Shown here: piece after piece, positions 801 to 47,183 of the stretch
Layout of the letters: each line of letters opens with the position of its first letter
Position numbering within the stretch: the stretch's first letter is position 1
Assembly: GCA_027064135.1 (NCBI GenBank)
Contig: JAMOQG010000127.1
Coordinates: 1 to 47,183, forward strand
Length of the DNA stretch: 47,183 bases
Source of the DNA: Peptostreptococcaceae bacterium
GTDB lineage: Bacteria; Bacillota; Clostridia; Peptostreptococcales; Acidaminobacteraceae
Direction: 5' to 3'
The notes under the pieces: generated by a model
Told to the model about the DNA's origin: nothing
Seen by the model: only the letters and a program-made list of their open reading frames with translations
Database searches by the model: none
Translations under genes and position numbers: made by a program

Positions 801-2036
801 TTACTCGTATTTCTTAAAAGCTAAAGTTGCATTATGTCCACCAAATCCTAATGAATTTGAAAGCGCATATTTTATTTCCATATTCTTTCCTTCTTTAGCA
901 TAATCTAAATCAATTCCTTCATCAGGTGTTGTATAGTTAAGTGTTCTATGAACATAACTATTTTTCATTTGTAATAATGTATCAATTGCTTCAACACCTC
1001 CAGAGGCTCCTAATAAATGTCCTGTCATAGATTTAGTAGAATTAACAACTAATTTATAAGCATGCTCTTTAAATAAATTTTTAATTGCCATAGTTTCAAA
1101 TTTATCATTCATTGGAGTTGATGTTCCATGTGCATTAATATAATCAATATCAGTTGGTTTTAAATTCGAATTTTCAACTGCCATTTTCATACTTCTAGTT
1201 CCACCCTCTCCTTCTGGTGCTGGTGCAGTAATATGATGCGCATCTGCAGAATATCCAAATCCTACTATTTCTCCATAAATATTTGCATTTCTTTTAACTG
1301 CATGTTCATATTCTTCTAAAACAAGAATTCCAGCTCCTTCAGCCATAATAAATCCATCTCTATCTTTATCAAATGGTCTACTTGCTGCTGTTGGGTCATC
1401 GTTTCTTGTACTTAATGCTTTCATTGAAGAAAATCCTGAAACTCCTATTGGAGTAATTGCTGCTTCCGAGCCACCTGCAAACATAAAATCTGCATCGCCT
1501 CTTTTAATTACATTATAAGCATCACCAATAGCATTAGTCGCAGAAGCACATGCAGTTACAACGGTAGTATTAGGACCTTTAGCTCCAAATTTCATTGAAA
1601 CTTGTCCTGATACCATATTTGTAATCATCATCGGAATAAAAAACGCACTAACTTTTCTAGGTCCTTTCTCTAAAAGTCTTTTATGTTGATCTTCTACTGT
1701 TTGAATTCCACCAATACCACAACCAAGAATTGTTCCAAATTTATTCATATCTATATTATTAACATCAAGTTTTGAATCTTTTAAAGCATCTCCTGCAGCT
1801 ACTACAGCAAATTGAGTGAATCTATCCATTCTTTTTACTTCTTTTTTATCTAGATAATTAGAATAATCAAATTCTTTTACTTCTCCAGCAATTTTAGTTG
1901 TATATTCACTTACATCAAAATTCTCTATTTTTGTAATTCCAGATTTTCCTTCTTTTAAAGAATTCCAAAATTCATCTATTGTATTACCTATCGGAGAAAC
2001 AACTCCCATTCCAGTAACTACTACTCTTCTTTGCAT
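801..2036 (-). CDS. fabF: 3-oxoacyl-[acyl-carrier-protein] synthase II
   Basis: Condenses malonyl-ACP with a growing acyl-ACP in the elongation cycle of type II fatty acid synthesis; cytoplasmic. The 411-residue protein has the usual family length. The full catalytic triad is present: Cys163 in TACASATNAIG, His303 in NAHGTSTP and His340 in MTGHLLGASGG. It is the last gene of the fab operon and follows acpP by 46 bases, with a strong ribosome-binding site (AAGGAGG) before ATG. A terminator follows. Confidence 0.97.
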   Translation of the reverse strand: MQRRVVVTGMGVVSPIGNTIDEFWNSLKEGKSGITKIENFDVSEYTTKIAGEVKEFDYSNYLDKKEVKRMDRFTQFAVVAAGDALKDSKLDVNNIDMNKFGTILGCGIGGIQTVEDQHKRLLEKGPRKVSAFFIPMMITNMVSGQVSMKFGAKGPNTTVVTACASATNAIGDAYNVIKRGDADFMFAGGSEAAITPIGVSGFSSMKALSTRNDDPTAASRPFDKDRDGFIMAEGAGILVLEEYEHAVKRNANIYGEIVGFGYSADAHHITAPAPEGEGGTRSMKMAVENSNLKPTDIDYINAHGTSTPMNDKFETMAIKNLFKEHAYKLVVNSTKSMTGHLLGASGGVEAIDTLLQMKNSYVHRTLNYTTPDEGIDLDYAKEGKNMEIKYALSNSLGFGGHNATLAFKKYE

Positions 2037-15163: not shown

Positions 15164-16462
15164 TTAGAATACTGTTTGTTCACTAACTTCAGTGCTTAAC
15201 GCAATCAAAGCTTTTTCAACTATTTTTCTTCTAACATTTTTCTCTTCAAGCTCATCCAAAGTAGGATCTCCTAAAGGATATGGTATAGCAACAGCAGGTA
15301 CAATTCTATTTGCTCCAACTGTTAATGAAATTGGAACGACAGTACATATATGCACTACTGGAATACCAGATTTTTCGATACCTTTTACCATCGTTGCACC
15401 GCAACGTGTACAAGTACCTCATGTAGAAGTTAAAATAACTGCATCAACTTTATCTGCTATTAAAGTTTCAGTTAATTCTTCTGCAAAAGCAAGTGAACTT
15501 TTTACAGCTGTACCATTTCCTACAGTTGAGTAGAAAGCTCCATAAATTTCACCTATTTCTCCAGCAGCTTCCATTTCTCTAAGTATATCTAAAGGAATAA
15601 CCCTGTTTGCATCATTATTCGCAAATGAAGGATCATATCCACCATGAGCAGTTTCATATCCTAATAATGTATTAACACCTGTTATATCATATCTTCCATA
15701 TTTAGAAGCTGAAGAAGATTCAATTCTATCGGGATTTCCGCATGGTACAATTCCACCCGAAGTAACTAAAGCAATTTTAGCTTTTGATAAATCTTTAATT
15801 GCTTTTCCAGGTTCTACGTTATCAAATACAGGCATTGGATATTCAGTTTCAAATTCTTCATGCTTAAGTTTTTTAATTAACATATCAACTGCACGTTTTC
15901 CACCAATTTCTTCAACAAATATATTTCTTCTTTTACCTGTTGATAAATATCCTTCTTCAGATGGTCTGCCAATTTCTTCGCCGTTTATTAATTTCATTGA
16001 AAATTTAGCAATTGCAGGTAATGCAGTTCTCATTGATGCAGCTGAATTTCCAGTTTCAATCATATATACATCAGAACTATACATATCTGCACCAGGATTC
16101 TCTACATACATACCGGTAAGTACTGGGATATTTAATTCTTCTTTTACAAATTTAGCAATTGCTCCACAAGCAACTCCATATCTTCCAGCATTAAATGCAG
16201 GACCAGCTATAAATAAATCTGGTTCATAACTTTTAATCATTTCAATAATTTCAACTTGTGCTTCTTCAACATTTTCATTGAAATATGAATCACCACAAAT
16301 AATTGTTCCAACTATCTCAGCCTCACCTTTAAATAAGCCATTAAGTCCCATTCCAGGACCTACAACTCCATCACGTTTCTCAGGTTTAATATCAGCTTTT
16401 TCTTCACCGCCTATACCAGCAAAAAACTGATTAATATAATGTACTACTTTAATTTTATTCAT
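15164..16462 (-). CDS. grdB: Glycine reductase complex selenoprotein B, subunit gamma (in-frame UGA = Sec348)
   Basis: Substrate-specific selenoprotein of glycine reductase, which with GrdE binds glycine as a Schiff base and passes a carboxymethyl group to GrdA's selenocysteine. The reading frame is broken by TGA at 15419-15421, in the context TST-U-GTCTRCGATM, the exact GrdB selenocysteine motif. Reading through gives 432 residues with Sec348. I start at ATG 16462 (MNKIKVVHYINQFFAG), preceded by GGAGG; the frame runs 19 codons further upstream without a good site. A hairpin follows the UGA. Ordinary gene finding would split this gene in two. Confidence 0.95.
15392..15406 (-). promoter_or_regulatory. 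Candidate SECIS hairpin of grdB
   Basis: Twelve bases after the UGA codon, CGTTGC and GCAACG form a perfect six-pair stem around a GGT loop in the mRNA. Bacterial selenocysteine insertion needs a hairpin at about this distance, with G/U in the loop. Binding by SelB is inferred. Confidence 0.7.
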
Positions 16463-20088: not shown

Positions 20089-20275
20089 TGTTATTTACCT
20101 GAGAGTTTCTTTTATCAAAAGATAAAATTGCACCTTCGGTGCTGTTAGTATACAGCTCTCCAGAGATTAGTCCAAAAACGGTCCTTTTACCTGAGAAATT
20201 CCCTTTTTATCGACAAACAAAAAGCTTTTTCCTTCGGTGATTAATTAAATAATTCTCTTCCGAATTTTTCATCCT
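20086..20275 (-). promoter_or_regulatory. Tandem glycine riboswitch
   Basis: Two aptamers lie head to tail in the leader of the glycine reductase operon. Each has the family core: a purine-rich GGAAGAGA or CTCTGGAGAG opening, CACCGAAGG, and CTCAGGTAAA. Aptamer 1 is about 20174-20270 and aptamer 2 is 20086-20165, closed by CTCTG/CAGAG. Glycine riboswitches in front of catabolic genes normally act as ON switches, which fits the terminator that follows. Confidence 0.96.
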
Positions 20276-41846: not shown

Positions 41847-42593
41847 TTACAAATCAATTTCCATTAATGATTTAAGTTTTTTTACATTGAGATTGTTTTC
41901 GTTAAAATAATCAATCACATGTTTTTGAGTACAATGACCCGTATAAATATTTTCAATACCTTTAAATAAATCAATAAGTTTTTTTGTGTTTTCATTAATT
42001 TCTTTTAAATGAAAGCCTCCAATTACAGCATATACTTTATCATTTTTCATAATTTTTTTAGCATATTCAATAATATTTTCAATGCCAGAATGAGAACAGC
42101 CTGTTATTACAATAATACCTTTTTCTGTATTTATTGCAATAGCTGAATCATCATATATATAATCAATAGAACCATCTTCTAAATAATACTTTGTAGCTCT
42201 TCCTTTAATTTCTCCTAAAAAACAAATGCTATCAGAAATATAATAAGGTTCTTTTGATTCAATTAAATTATATTTCACTTTAATTTCTTCTCTTGATTGA
42301 TTTAATCCTACATACCTATCATTTGTTGCATATCTTTTTAAAAAAGCATCTGGATGGCATATTAAAGTCTTATTAGATAAATACTTAAGACCATTGCCAT
42401 GATCATAATGCCCATGACTTAAAATTACTGTTTTAATTTCATCAAAATCCACATTCATCATTAATCCGTTTTTAAAAAATAAATCAGATTGTCCTGTATC
42501 AAATAATATTTTTTCATTCTCTTTTTCAATATATAACGATAATCCATGTTCATTTAAAACATTGTCATTTTCTAATAACACTTTAATTTTCAT
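41847..42593 (-). CDS. Metallo-beta-lactamase fold hydrolase (COG1237 type)
   Basis: A 248-residue MBL-fold protein with the metal site LSHGHYDHGNG around residues 60-70, GCSHSGIEN near 165, and GGFHL near 191. This pattern fits the COG1237 group, related to enzymes acting on pterin precursors; the substrate here is unknown. I prefer ATG 42593; the frame extends to a TTG four codons upstream, inside the M42 gene. It overlaps that gene by 11 bases. Confidence 0.85.
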   Translation of the reverse strand: MKIKVLLENDNVLNEHGLSLYIEKENEKILFDTGQSDLFFKNGLMMNVDFDEIKTVILSHGHYDHGNGLKYLSNKTLICHPDAFLKRYATNDRYVGLNQSREEIKVKYNLIESKEPYYISDSICFLGEIKGRATKYYLEDGSIDYIYDDSAIAINTEKGIIVITGCSHSGIENIIEYAKKIMKNDKVYAVIGGFHLKEINENTKKLIDLFKGIENIYTGHCTQKHVIDYFNENNLNVKKLKSLMEIDL

Positions 42594-43650
42594 TTTTATT
42601 TCCAATTGGTTTTAAATTGATATCTTTTTTTATATTTTTAATTGATTTTACAAGTAATTCAATTTCATTTTCAATATCATCTAAATTAACAACTTCTGAT
42701 GGCGAATGCATATATCGAAGAGGTAAAGACATTAATGCTGTAGCTACTCCTTTACCAGTAATTCTTAATTGATCTGCATCTGTTCCTGTTTTAGCAGGAG
42801 TTAATTCATATTGAAGATTAATATTCTCTTCTTTAGCAGTATCAATAAAAATTTTATTAACATTTTTGTTAATTGGAGATCCCATAGAGATAACAGGACC
42901 ATTTCCAATTTTTACATCACCATGCTCACATTTATTCATACCTGGATAATCAGTTGCAAAAGTGACATCTACTGCTATTGCAATATCTGGTCTTATTTGG
43001 CTTGCTGCAAAATATGCTCCATTTTTAATTGTTTCTTCGCTCACTGTAGAAACAGAATAAACGCCAACATCAATATCCTCGTCTTTCAATTTTCTAATTA
43101 CTTCAGCCACTATAAAAGAACCAGTTTTGTTATCAAGACCTCTTGCGACTATATTGTTATTTAATAAATTTTGAAATCCAATATCATAAACTACAAAATC
43201 TCCAACATTTATTATTCCTGAAAGTTCTTCTTTCGATTTTGCTCCAACATCAATAAATATATCACTTACTTTAAGTTCATTTTTAGGTCCACCTTGATGC
43301 TGAGCTATTACACCAACAGCTCCTGGAATTTCTTTTTTTCCTAACACTTTCACTCTTTTTCCAAGTGCAAGTTTTGGATTAATGCCACCTGATTTTTGCA
43401 CATATATATATCCACTATCATCAATGTAATTTACTATAAAGCATATTTCATCAGCATGCCCTGCCAATAAAACTTTAAATTCAGAATTTTTATTAAGAAT
43501 ACCCATTACATTCCCAGAAAGATCAGTTCTTATCTCATCCGCATACTCTTTAACATAATTCATCCATTTATTTTGAAAATTTTCTTCACTTCCTGATGGA
43601 GCATATGTCATTAACAATTCTTCTAAAAATTCTCTTGATTCTTTTCTCAT
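42583..43650 (-). CDS. M42 family metallopeptidase
   Basis: Glutamyl-aminopeptidase/endoglucanase-like cytosolic peptidase that trims peptides with two metal ions. The 355-residue protein has LAGHADEICFIV (metal His/Asp), GLDNKTGSFI, the catalytic Glu pair in STVSEETIKNGA, VDVTFATDYPG and RYMHSPSEV (metal His). ATG 43650 has GGGAGAT upstream; a TTG five codons earlier is less likely. It fits an amino-acid-fermenting lifestyle. Confidence 0.92.
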   Translation of the reverse strand: MRKESREFLEELLMTYAPSGSEENFQNKWMNYVKEYADEIRTDLSGNVMGILNKNSEFKVLLAGHADEICFIVNYIDDSGYIYVQKSGGINPKLALGKRVKVLGKKEIPGAVGVIAQHQGGPKNELKVSDIFIDVGAKSKEELSGIINVGDFVVYDIGFQNLLNNNIVARGLDNKTGSFIVAEVIRKLKDEDIDVGVYSVSTVSEETIKNGAYFAASQIRPDIAIAVDVTFATDYPGMNKCEHGDVKIGNGPVISMGSPINKNVNKIFIDTAKEENINLQYELTPAKTGTDADQLRITGKGVATALMSLPLRYMHSPSEVVNLDDIENEIELLVKSIKNIKKDINLKPIGNKNEN

Positions 43651-43712
43651 TTTATCATCTCCCAATTAGATAATACTATTTTATTAACAACTTTTCAACT
43701 TTTAGACAAAAT

Positions 43713-43743
43713 AAAAAAGCCCTCGTATATCAAAGAAGGCTTT
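43713..43743 (-). terminator. Terminator after ncRNA copy 1
   Basis: AAAGCCTTC and GAGGGCTTT form a nine-pair stem (one G-U), followed by a T run on the minus strand, ten bases past the end of the copy 1 closing helix. Confidence 0.85.
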
Positions 43744-43752
43744 ATATTAAAT

Positions 43753-43960
43753 GTGGAGTTGATAACATCCGCTCTTGAAATTCTTACTCACTACTTGACT
43801 TCCAAATAACTCTTTCGAATTAAAAATCGATTCTTTCAGTAAACTAACAACTTCCTAAACTTTCACTTAAATTAAAACTAAAATCTTCTAACTTGTTTCT
43901 ACTTGCATAAACCAATATCTAAAAACTTTACACTTAAATTAAACAAGTCACCAACTCCAC
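43753..43960 (-). ncRNA. Candidate structured non-coding RNA, copy 1
   Basis: A 208-base element without an open frame. Its ends, GTGGAGTTGGTGAC and GTTATCAACTCCAC (minus strand), pair over all 14 positions with two G-U pairs. Inside, CTTGTTT and AAACAAG form a further seven-pair stem. It shares several long blocks with copy 2, such as GAAGATTTTAGTTTTAA and AAGTTGTTAGTTTAC, and is followed at once by a terminator. The orientation is set by the terminator. I cannot assign an Rfam family from memory; the raiA-type RNAs of Clostridia are about this size and should be compared. Confidence 0.7.
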
Positions 43961-44004
43961 GTTATATAGCTACCCATCCTCTTACTTTTTAAACATTTTT
44001 TTAA

Positions 44005-44029
44005 TAAAAAAAGACTTCAAAAGTCTTTT
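44005..44029 (-). terminator. Terminator after ncRNA copy 2
   Basis: AAAAGACT and AGTCTTTT form an eight-pair stem with a five-base loop, followed by a T run on the minus strand, just after the closing helix of copy 2. Its sequence differs from the copy 1 terminator. Confidence 0.85.
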
Positions 44030-44033
44030 AATT

Positions 44034-44244
44034 GTGTGAAGTTGATAACATCCATTTTTGAAGAAAATTCTTAAACTAATAACTTATCAAATAGACTCTA
44101 CAAATTAAAATCATATTTTGTAAACTAACAACTTTCTTTTATTACACTTAAATTAAAACTAAAATCTTCTACCTTTACCGCTTTACTTAAACATATTACT
44201 TAAAAAACTTTAAACTTAAATTAAATAAGTTATCAACTTCACAC
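44034..44244 (-). ncRNA. Candidate structured non-coding RNA, copy 2
   Basis: A 211-base element about 281 bases upstream of copy 1 in the same orientation. The ends GTGTGAAGTTGATAAC and GTTATCAACTTCACAC pair perfectly over 16 positions. Compared with copy 1, a G-C pair has become A-U with both sides changed, and two G-U pairs have become A-U, so pairing is kept. An inner hairpin TTTACAAA/TTTGTAGA lies in the second half. The upstream AAAAAAATGTTTAAA is also shared by both copies, overlapping the end of the UPF0489 gene here. Confidence 0.72.
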
Positions 44245-44282
44245 CCATTATTTACCCGACATATAAAGCTTTAAACATTTTT

Positions 44283-45014
44283 TTACATTTTTTTCAAAAT
44301 TATTTCTTTTATCATATTAATACAGCTATTTTCACATTCTTCTAAATTAAATTCGTCTTTTTTTAGATATTCAAAATACTTTTTTGAACGTGCTATTGTG
44401 ATAATTTCTGCTTTTTTTATTAATTTTTTAATAATATCATTATTTTTAGGCTTAAAACTATCTTTCTTAGAAAAATAATCAAGATCAATATCGAGTACAA
44501 TATCTTCATCTGGAATTTTAAAATCTACACTCTCAAACATTTCATTTTCAAGTGAACTAAAAAAATCGCTTGATACTTTATAATGAGCTCCTCTATCATA
44601 TTCATGTTTATCCATACAATTAATCATATGATAATCTGATAGATAACTAAGTTCCATAGCAGTATTAATATGCTCATCATTACTGAGTTCATCACTTACA
44701 CTTATCAAACTCAAAACATCTTCATGTTTTATTGAACTTACTTTTCGTTTTATAATTTTTTCAGCTAAAATTTCTGCATTTTCATCATCTTTTATTGTTG
44801 CTTCTAAAAGTGCGCTTTGATAAAATGGCGGGTTAGTATCAGGATGAAAATCTATTGAAACTAAAGTATAGCTTTTATTATTTTTGATTGAAAAATTACC
44901 CCATAGTGGCAAATTATATTGATGTTTATCAATTACATATATTATTTTATTTTTTATTTTAATAATTCTTAAATTTGAAAATTGATTTTCTTTAAACATT
45001 TTTTCACTTTCCAT
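44283..45014 (-). CDS. UPF0489 family protein
   Basis: A 243-residue protein with the family's acidic metal-site-like motifs VSIDFHPDTN near residue 52 and DIVLDIDLDYFSKK near 172, as in UPF0489 proteins with an arginase-like fold. The reaction is unknown. The start is unsure: ATG 45014 has only a weak ribosome site, and ATG 44999 (MFKENQF) follows GGAAAGTG. No partner genes beyond the surface protein are evident. Confidence 0.75.
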   Translation of the reverse strand: MESEKMFKENQFSNLRIIKIKNKIIYVIDKHQYNLPLWGNFSIKNNKSYTLVSIDFHPDTNPPFYQSALLEATIKDDENAEILAEKIIKRKVSSIKHEDVLSLISVSDELSNDEHINTAMELSYLSDYHMINCMDKHEYDRGAHYKVSSDFFSSLENEMFESVDFKIPDEDIVLDIDLDYFSKKDSFKPKNNDIIKKLIKKAEIITIARSKKYFEYLKKDEFNLEECENSCINMIKEIILKKM

Positions 45015-45077: not shown

Positions 45078-47183
45078 CTATTGTTCTAATGGAATAAATC
45101 CATGTGTTGCAGCTTCTATTGCTCCATATGCCCAAAATTCTGATAAAACGTCTGTAAACGATGGTAATTCATTAATATAATTCTCTCTATCGATTACTCT
45201 ATTTACCATTATTACCAATTCTGAACGTTTTGTCTTATCATTTGGCCTAAAAGATCCATCTATAAATCCAACACTAACACCTGCATTATAGAATCTGTTA
45301 ATATGACTTTGGGCCCAATGTCCATCAATATCGTTATATGTCGCAGGGGTATTATCAATTTCAATTCCCTTTATTTCCCAATATTTTGAGAATACTGCTG
45401 CTATTTCAGCATGTGAAATAGATTGATTAGGTTTAAAACTTCCATCTTCATATCCATTAAATACACCAATTTGAGATACTGCCTGAATATAATTAAAATA
45501 CCATTTATCAGAAGTTACATCCGAATAGATTTGTTCTCCTGGATTACTAACATCTAATTTCAAGATTCTTGCTAAAATAGTAGCCATTTCAGCTCTTGTA
45601 ATCTCTTTATCAGATCTAAATGTTTTATCTGGGTAACCAAGAATATAAGCGTCAAGAAATTCTATTGTTCCTAAAGGAACAATATCTGTTTCAATAAGAA
45701 TCATCTCATCTATTCCAGCATCTTTATTAACTCCTCCACTTAACGGAACTTCATTTGCATCATCTGGAATTATAATAGATTCTTCTACTTCAACAATTAC
45801 TGTACCTCTATCTTCTTCTTTTTTATCATTTTTTACAGTATAGTAAAAATATGCTCTTCCTACAAAATCTTTATCAGGAGTAAATATAATTGAATTTTCA
45901 TCAATTTTTACACTTCCACTTGCTCCATTTTTTACTGAAACAAACTCATCAGCATCTTTATCATTTTCCATTAACTTTTCTTTACTAACTGTTAACACTT
46001 GATTTTTTAAAGTATTTAAATTATCAGTAACTGCCTTTATAGACTTATTACTTGGTGGTACATATCCACCACCGCCAGTTGATCCACCAGTATTTCCACC
46101 AGTTGATCCTCCAGTATTTGTTTCTTTTACTGTTACTGTTCTTATTACTTCTACATTGTTTCTATCTGTGTCTGTTACTTCATATTTTACAGTATATCTT
46201 CCAACTGTATTTTCATCTACTGTTCCTGTTATTACTATTTTATTTGTTATATCTCCATCTTCATTGTCTGTTGCTGTTACTCCGTCTGATTCATTAAATG
46301 AACTTCCTTTTTCTATTGTTACATTTGTAGCTCCTTCTATTACTGGTAGTTCATTTGTTGTTACTGTGATATCAAATGTTATTGATGATTCATTTCCTGA
46401 TTCATCTGTTGCTTTTACTGTTACTGTTTTTGTACCTAATTCAGTTGGTGTTCCTTCTATCTTAGTTGTTGTTTCGTTATAAGTTAAACCTGAAGGTAAA
46501 TCAGTAACTACTACTGTAACATTTGATTCATCTGTTACTTCTATTTCTATTGGTGTTATTGTTTCATTTACTGGAACTGTTTTATCATTAATTGCTTTTA
46601 TTTCTGGTTTTGTTGTATCTTCTACTGTTACTGTTCTTATTACTTCTACAGTATTTCCATCTGTATCTGTTACTTTATATGTCACAGTTTGAGATCCAAC
46701 TGCATTTTCATCTACTGTTCCTGTTATTACTATTTCAGATGTTATTACTCCATCTTCATTGTCTGTTGCTGTTACTCCGTCTGATTCATTAAATGAACTT
46801 CCTTTTTCTATTGTTACATTTGTAGCTCCTTCTATTACTGGTAGTTCATTTGTTGTTACTGTGATATCAAATGTTATTGATGATTCATTTCCTGATTCAT
46901 CTGTTGCTTTTACTGTTACTGTTTTTGTACCTAATTCAGTTGGTGTTCCTTCTATCTTAGTTGTTGTTTCGTTATAAGTTAAACCTGAAGGTAAATCAGT
47001 AACTACTACTGTAACATTTGATTCATCTGTTACTTCTATTTCTATTGGTGTTATTGTTTCATTTACTGGAACTGTTTTATCATTAATTGCTTTTATTTCT
47101 GGTTTTGTTGTATCTTCTACTGTTACTGTTCTTATTACTTCTACAGTATTTCCATCTGTATCTGTTACTTTATATGTCACAGT
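45078..47183 (-). CDS. SLH-domain surface protein with Ig-like repeats (5' end cut by window edge)
   Basis: At least 701 codons of the C-terminal part are present; the true start lies beyond the right edge. The visible order is: 165-residue repeats made of an Ig/cadherin-like unit (DTTKPEIKAINDKTVPVNET) and a DUF5011-like unit (VTIEKGSSFNESDGVTATDN); a Gly/Ser/Thr linker near residue 355; a unit with LTVSKEKLMENDKDAD; then three SLH domains from about residue 515 (GYPDKTFRSDKEITRAEMA, GYEDGSFKPNQSISHAEIA, GFIDGSFRPNDKTKRSEL). SLH domains bind pyruvylated cell wall polymers, so the protein should sit on the cell surface, possibly as an adhesin. Confidence 0.93.
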   Translation of the reverse strand, partial: TVTYKVTDTDGNTVEVIRTVTVEDTTKPEIKAINDKTVPVNETITPIEIEVTDESNVTVVVTDLPSGLTYNETTTKIEGTPTELGTKTVTVKATDESGNESSITFDITVTTNELPVIEGATNVTIEKGSSFNESDGVTATDNEDGVITSEIVITGTVDENAVGSQTVTYKVTDTDGNTVEVIRTVTVEDTTKPEIKAINDKTVPVNETITPIEIEVTDESNVTVVVTDLPSGLTYNETTTKIEGTPTELGTKTVTVKATDESGNESSITFDITVTTNELPVIEGATNVTIEKGSSFNESDGVTATDNEDGDITNKIVITGTVDENTVGRYTVKYEVTDTDRNNVEVIRTVTVKETNTGGSTGGNTGGSTGGGGYVPPSNKSIKAVTDNLNTLKNQVLTVSKEKLMENDKDADEFVSVKNGASGSVKIDENSIIFTPDKDFVGRAYFYYTVKNDKKEEDRGTVIVEVEESIIIPDDANEVPLSGGVNKDAGIDEMILIETDIVPLGTIEFLDAYILGYPDKTFRSDKEITRAEMATILARILKLDVSNPGEQIYSDVTSDKWYFNYIQAVSQIGVFNGYEDGSFKPNQSISHAEIAAVFSKYWEIKGIEIDNTPATYNDIDGHWAQSHINRFYNAGVSVGFIDGSFRPNDKTKRSELVIMVNRVIDRENYINELPSFTDVLSEFWAYGAIEAATHGFIPLEQ
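46190..47183 (-). repeat. 495-bp tandem repeat inside the surface protein gene
   Basis: The sequence repeats with a 495-base (165-codon) period: for example, the same block begins at 46606 and 47101. From about 46300 onward the copies look identical by eye, while the copy nearest the 3' end of the gene differs in its last 150 bases or so. Confidence 0.9.

Follow-up and report, generated by a model that had tools for sequence, protein, structure and literature searches.

Tandem and stress-controlled small RNAs

Homologous small RNAs (sRNAs) encoded in tandem are a known arrangement, of which OmrA/OmrB, PrrF1/PrrF2 and AbcR1/AbcR2 are described examples (PMC4211561). Control of non-coding RNAs by a stress sigma factor has likewise been reported in Listeria, where Rli33-1, which belongs to the multicopy LhrC family, depends on Sigma B, the RNAs of that family being 105–121 nt long with UCCC motifs (PMC8079631), and where SbrE (Rli47) is up-regulated by SigB (PMC3565269). 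For C. difficile, the SigB promoter consensus is given as WGWTT-N13-17-(G/T)GGTAWA (PMC7482061), and a shorter form of it also appears (PMC7494833). Among structured clostridial RNAs, the raiA-type RNA ModT is described in C. difficile as having a SigA promoter and a consensus with two pseudoknots (PMC11706538).

We analysed a window of 47,183 nucleotides (contig JAMOQG010000127.1, assembly GCA_027064135.1; its genome is called G000 here) together with a sister genome of the same genus (G001). The window holds two copies, A and B, of a structured RNA. Like OmrA/OmrB, PrrF1/PrrF2 and AbcR1/AbcR2, they are two related tandem RNAs with conserved and diverged blocks; the described pairs, however, are different RNAs from Gram-negative bacteria (OmrA and OmrB measure 88 and 82 nt), whereas A and B lack an Rfam match. 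With SbrE/Rli47 and Rli33-1 they would have in common that a stress sigma factor controls a non-coding RNA with a transcript of its own. Unlike the LhrC relatives, they span ~212 nt before the terminator, are C-poor (11–15 C per copy) and are predicted to fold into a three-way junction. Sibling sRNAs and SigB-dependent sRNAs are thus known kinds, and the sequence family of A and B has no match at threshold in Rfam 15. In the literature on SigB-dependent, tandem, raiA, Listeria and CsfG RNAs, A and B are undescribed among the matches listed, as judged from titles and abstract openings.

Two diverged copies of a structured RNA upstream of an M42 aminopeptidase gene

The two units are direct copies on the minus strand. 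Upstream of them lies a UPF0489-like gene (44283–45014, minus strand; 24.3 bits, under the 27-bit cut-off) and downstream, outside the RNAs, an M42 aminopeptidase gene (42583–43650 from its ATG, minus strand). Sequence comparison and folds place copy A at 44034–44245 and copy B at 43750–43961, each ~212 nt long. Their offset of ~281–282 bases agrees with the initial annotation, which had proposed tandem direct copies about 281 bases apart. The copies have diverged considerably, with 76% identity by BLAST (query bases 4–211) and, when flanks are included, 184 identical columns out of 254 ungapped alignment columns. The same annotation had found no open frame, and only two ORFs of at least 20 aa overlap the pair, of 23 and 29 aa, both with TTG starts. 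Further along the contig, 45078–47183 (minus strand) is occupied by a long ORF with near-identical repeated domains that is interrupted by the contig end.

Single-sequence folds give each unit a closing helix (P1) of 14–16 bp, as had been claimed for its ends, together with a P2 hairpin in the 5′ half and a P3 arm in the 3′ half. In copy A, the 5′ and 3′ strands of P1 fall at 44229–44244 and 44034–44049 (minus strand), as supported by the single-sequence fold and the four-sequence alignment, and the consensus fold places P2, a long hairpin of 23 consensus pairs, at 44145–44227. The folds of copy B place the corresponding P1 strands at 43947–43960 and 43753–43766 (minus strand). Fold energies were low relative to shuffled sequence (z of −5.6 for A and −5.0 for B, with none of 200 shuffles as good). 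An independent run on all four sequences, that is, two copies from each of two species, gave z of −5.5 to −6.8, and the opposite strand gave −2.3 to −4.8. The four-sequence consensus kept P1 and P2 and showed small helices in place of P3, an arm predicted when a sequence is folded alone or when a copy is folded together with its ortholog.

Changes within P1 mostly preserve pairing. At columns 9/213 an A-U pair in A corresponds to a G-C pair in B, both sides having changed, and at columns 15/207 and 17/205 A-U in A corresponds to G-U in B, so that the one double and two wobble changes noted from the window stand on the four-sequence alignment. The accompanying statement that no pair is broken holds for the inner 14 pairs of P1 but not for the two outermost column pairs, each of which is unpaired in one of the four sequences. 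Across the alignment 98.6% of 220 cells were paired, compared with 94.2% after shuffling, and sliding the structure by 1–3 columns brought pairing down to 40–57% of cells. With a structure derived from the same four-sequence alignment, the covariation score was 0.303 versus 0.212 in shuffles, and 13 cells had changed on both sides versus 7.2, neither value being reached in 500 shuffles. Counted by pair in these four sequences from two species, there was no excess: seven pairs had a change on both sides versus 6.1 shuffled (reached by 190 of 500 shuffles), and further pair types numbered 23 versus 21.1 (reached by 110 of 500).

Each copy is followed by a hairpin and a T run on the minus strand, at 44005–44029 for A and 43710–43743 for B, identified from the folds. 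In all four sequences the hairpin is present in the minimum free energy (MFE) fold as well as in the centroid fold, with the T run after it, and the stem behind B covaries between species, A-U replacing G-C at one pair and U-A replacing U-G at another. A consensus terminator scanner reported neither; by inspection, the A hairpin with only two G-C pairs and the 10-nt loop of the B hairpin lie outside its rule. We accept both as predicted intrinsic terminators, weak by the scanner's rule, in line with the terminator that the initial annotation had placed after each copy.

Conservation in a sister species

G001 likewise has A followed by B ahead of the M42 gene, with 92% identity over 561 bases; the G001 contig ends just within the 3′ end of the upstream gene. 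Across species A resembles A and B resembles B, so the duplication predates the species split. Identity between the genomes is 93.4% for copy A and 96.2% for copy B, corresponding to 14 and 8 substitutions per 212 positions (5.2% pooled). In the part of the M42 gene that was compared, 46 of 216 third codon positions had changed (21.3%), along with 5 of 216 first and 2 of 217 second positions. The RNAs therefore change more slowly than adjacent third positions (Fisher p of 1e-5 for A, 2e-8 for B and 3e-9 pooled). Among the flanks, identity is 69% in the A–B spacer, 78% in the B terminator, 92% in the A terminator, 91% from the B terminator to the M42 gene and 92% in the M42 part overall, and some of these flanks (91%, 92%) are conserved nearly as well as copy A. 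The description of the locus as a duplicated functional RNA is supported by this cross-species comparison, in which place is kept, substitution is slow and most changes keep pairing.

To look for relatives, we used a covariance model (R1) of four sequences and 55 pairs. Among 41 genomes of the family, five had matches at E ≤ 1, namely G000, G001 and three weak ones (E 0.1–0.6) that we rejected, as they aligned poorly and had no motif of the kind described below within 200 bases upstream. In 393 genomes drawn from the order, R1 at E ≤ 0.1 found nothing beyond G000 and G001. These searches ran with stricter filters and scored at most 57 (family) and 6 (order) candidates in each genome, and may have overlooked a diverged relative. 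A pattern of 18 bases taken from the 3′ helix occurred in eight genome-contig stretches and one viral contig, of which only Clostridiaceae bacterium HSG29, which we take to be G001, matched R1, and did so twice. The homologue search that had been proposed as a check thus found the pair in one further genome of the same genus, with pairing mostly conserved.

A SigB-type motif precedes each copy

Ahead of each copy we found a SigB-type motif, which the initial annotation had not mentioned. An exact match to ATGTTTAA-N13-GGGTA(AA) lies before copy A at 44253–44278 (minus strand), and one to ATGTTTAA-N13-GGGTA before copy B at 43971–43996 (minus strand). Both keep their elements and spacing in G001, where 2 of 26 bases differ in the A motif and 4 of 26 in the B motif. 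The motif, with a spacer of 13, thus stands ahead of all four copies, 8–10 bases before the closing helix, and GTTTAA-N13-GGGTA is common to the A and B promoters of both species while the spacer sequence changes. Copy A fits the C. difficile SigB consensus in full in both species; copy B departs from it in the second box, by two of seven positions in the window and by one of seven in G001.

With at most one mismatch allowed, G000 has 18 motif sites versus 5 for a reversed control, and G001 has 11 versus none. The looser pattern GTTTAA-N12-15-GGGTA is not enriched over the whole of G000 (10 versus 9 in the control); eight of these ten sites, including A and B, have a spacer of 13 and the other two a spacer of 14. 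Some motif sites fall within ORFs or read as having TATAAT-like boxes, which speaks against the SigB reading. Exact matches number seven in G000 (A, B and one each on contigs C125, C62, C155, C147 and C82) and three in G001 (A, B and the ortholog of the C125 site). The C125 match precedes a third intergenic RNA-like locus, that on C62 precedes a gene that reads as flagellin-like, the C147 match is intergenic and the C82 match lies inside an ORF.

G000 also carries a candidate regulator in the form of an rsbV-rsbW-sigB-like operon, which encodes a STAS protein, an RsbW-like HATPase and a sigma factor. This sigma factor is the only one of four matches in G000 to score above the cut-off of the SigBFG-family model; it falls below that of the SigB equivalog model (199.9 bits, cut-off 315), and the RsbW-like protein is under the cut-offs of its RsbW models.

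Together, two homologous non-coding RNAs in one genome, each behind its own SigB-type motif, and a SigB-like factor with its partner switch suggest that A and B are paralogous, separately transcribed structured sRNAs, or siblings, of a SigB-type general stress regulon, a reading to which we assign a probability of about 0.62. Under stress-sigma control of this kind, the RsbV-like protein would free the sigma factor from its RsbW-like partner, and polymerase would then start at each ATGTTTAA-N13-GGGTA promoter. Transcription of each copy would begin close to where its closing helix starts and stop at its own terminator, for a predicted RNA of about 240–255 nt including the terminator. The closing helix may protect the ends and present the three-way junction with its long P2 hairpin and P3 arm, and the most likely action of the siblings, whose roles may overlap, would be in trans, either on stress-related mRNAs or on a partner protein. 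The pair would then represent a new, testable RNA family for which the probable controlling switch is also at hand.

How A and B would act was considered from their invariant blocks. Six blocks of at least six columns are invariant, and these lie mostly in helices (mean unpaired values of 0.01–0.22, taking the minimum over four sequences); 21 of the 23 consensus pairs of P2 never vary in the four sequences. The only run of at least four columns that is open in all of them is GGAU, at the junction, and in the predicted folds it bears little resemblance to an exposed seed for base pairing. This makes protein binding a serious alternative to mRNA pairing, and it is possible, though we hold it to be rather unlikely, that the RNAs act mainly by binding protein or as a scaffold. 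The comparison covers two close species and one duplication, so invariance may reflect little elapsed time, and an opening of P2 to pair with targets would likewise conserve both of its strands.

That A and B are discrete sRNAs read by the housekeeping sigma factor, their SigB-like motif being a relic or chance, is a more doubtful proposition. A sigma-A-like match (9/12) does overlap the copy A promoter, and several motif sites read as carrying TATAAT-like boxes. Against this, the promoter scan reported no sigma-A-like site at the copy B promoter, and the elements shared by A and B have been retained in both species through the turnover of their spacers.

The order RNA–RNA–M42 in both species, on one strand and with a terminator ahead of the gene, would also suit regulation of the M42 aminopeptidase gene in cis by two tandem leaders, acting as riboswitches or attenuators. 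We consider this improbable. In a riboswitch, the aptamer helix and the terminator would be expected to exclude one another, but in all four sequences P1 and the terminator hairpin form together, in the MFE and the centroid fold alike, which makes a tandem riboswitch unlikely. A promoter motif precedes each copy, and the M42 gene has a promoter-like site of its own after the last terminator, a sigma-A-like candidate (TTGAAA-17-TATTAT, 10/12) found by the promoter scan at 43670–43698 (minus strand). Its hexamers and spacing appear by eye to be identical in G001, and sigma-A-like sites in the stretch as a whole show no significant excess (6 versus 3.7 in shuffles, sd 2.3). Near 11 M42-type loci of seven other genomes of the family, R1 gave three matches, with E of 3.3–6, none of them convincing.

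Known RNA families and mobile elements

We scanned the whole window with Rfam 15 at gathering thresholds and found nothing for A or B; elsewhere in the window the scan reported a SECIS_4 element (15381–15418, minus strand; 62.7 bits) and a glycine riboswitch (20169–20272, minus strand; 57.2 bits). At the locus itself, matches up to E 10 comprised PyrR, SNORD64, DUF3800-I, Phe_leader, SNORD26 and ctRNA_p42d, all far below their gathering scores, and we treated these six as chance. The initial annotation's failure to match a known family is thus borne out by the Rfam check. Its suggestion of a raiA-type RNA is not supported: although A and B resemble raiA/ModT (RF03072) in being structured clostridial RNAs within a size of ~215–260 nt, raiA was missing from both Rfam scans, and RF03072 found nothing in the whole of G000 at E ≤ 1 with 19 of 19 candidates scored, in a search whose sensitivity was not demonstrated in the 14 control genomes (none over the cut-off).

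A diverged pair of 6S RNAs regulating RNA polymerase is very improbable. A and B do resemble 6S RNA in size (~200 nt), in their paired ends and in their number, two copies being present in B. subtilis, and the 6S model (RF00013) found no other 6S in the whole of G000 (rated 97.9% complete) at E ≤ 1 with 15 of 15 candidates scored, in a search where 4 of 14 control genomes exceeded the cut-off. However, RF00013 does not match A or B, 6S was not among the six weak Rfam matches and the promoters look SigB-like. The four single-sequence folds, which are predictions, show branched three-way junctions in place of a rod with a central bubble.

Searching G000 with copy A brought up no additional full copy: among the best 40 of 152 candidates, A and B were followed only by matches of 30–37 bases at E 0.003, and phage and plasmid collections held no match to the RNAs. 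A mobile MITE-like repeat, which the initial annotation had named as one outcome that would overturn its reading and which would explain inverted-repeat ends and two copies, is hardly credible given this lack of dispersed copies, the fixed synteny in the sister species, where A and B remain distinct, and the promoter motif and terminator of each copy. The whole pair as query gave one extra match in G000, on contig C149 (59 bases, 79%, E 2e-4), in which 34 bases align with copy B; as it has neither the motif nor the rest of the RNA, with R1 reaching 12.8 bits at best, and at a different place, and no Rfam match, we regard it as chance or a fragment. The match (C149:3500–5500, positions 927–986, minus strand) lies close upstream of an ORF that reads as transposase-like, and its 34 aligned bases are 88% identical to the AAGTTGTTAGTTTA block that is invariant in the RNAs.

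A third structured RNA and other motif sites

Behind the exact motif match on contig C125 of G000 lies a third structured RNA, also intergenic and ~294 nt long (about 31211–30918, minus strand), with a fold z of −5.96 and a terminator hairpin. Its closing helix, GUAGCAGC/GCUGCUAC, becomes GUAGUGGC/GCCGCUAC in the G001 ortholog on contig C188, through one double change and one wobble; the G001 version also has an expanded run of AACAAGT-like repeats that is missing in G000. The G000 RNA has no Rfam match, and compared with A and B it gave no R1 match and only BLAST pieces of at most 15 bases with E of at least 0.04. A 22-codon frame near its 3′ end is probably non-coding, judging by its four changes between species, all of them replacements, and by a start very close to its Shine-Dalgarno-like run. 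A motif that fits the SigB-like operon of G000 leads to three structured RNAs without an Rfam match. If these three are expressed in step with SigB, they would be where to look for the post-transcriptional side of the general stress response in a non-model clostridium. It is tempting to speculate that the SigB response of this lineage works largely through structured RNAs driven by the best SigB-type promoter matches, namely the twin RNA, with helical invariant parts that probably bind a protein and so far from one genus, and the third RNA of ~294 nt, which differs in sequence; we offer this as a tentative and rather unlikely extension.

Among the remaining sites, two one-mismatch motifs recur with similar letters in both genomes, their orthology being judged on the motif alone. 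One lies on C62 of G000, before a DUF427 gene, and on C43 of G001; the other is on C110 of G000, before a gene for a 272-aa protein without a Pfam match, and on C77 of G001. Neighbours at some motif sites read as transposase-like or uracil-phosphoribosyltransferase-like. Shortly after the exact match on contig C155 of G000 lie two tandem c-di-GMP-I riboswitches (1276–1478, minus strand; 50.9 and 35.3 bits, cut-off 35), where a link between SigB and c-di-GMP is possible.
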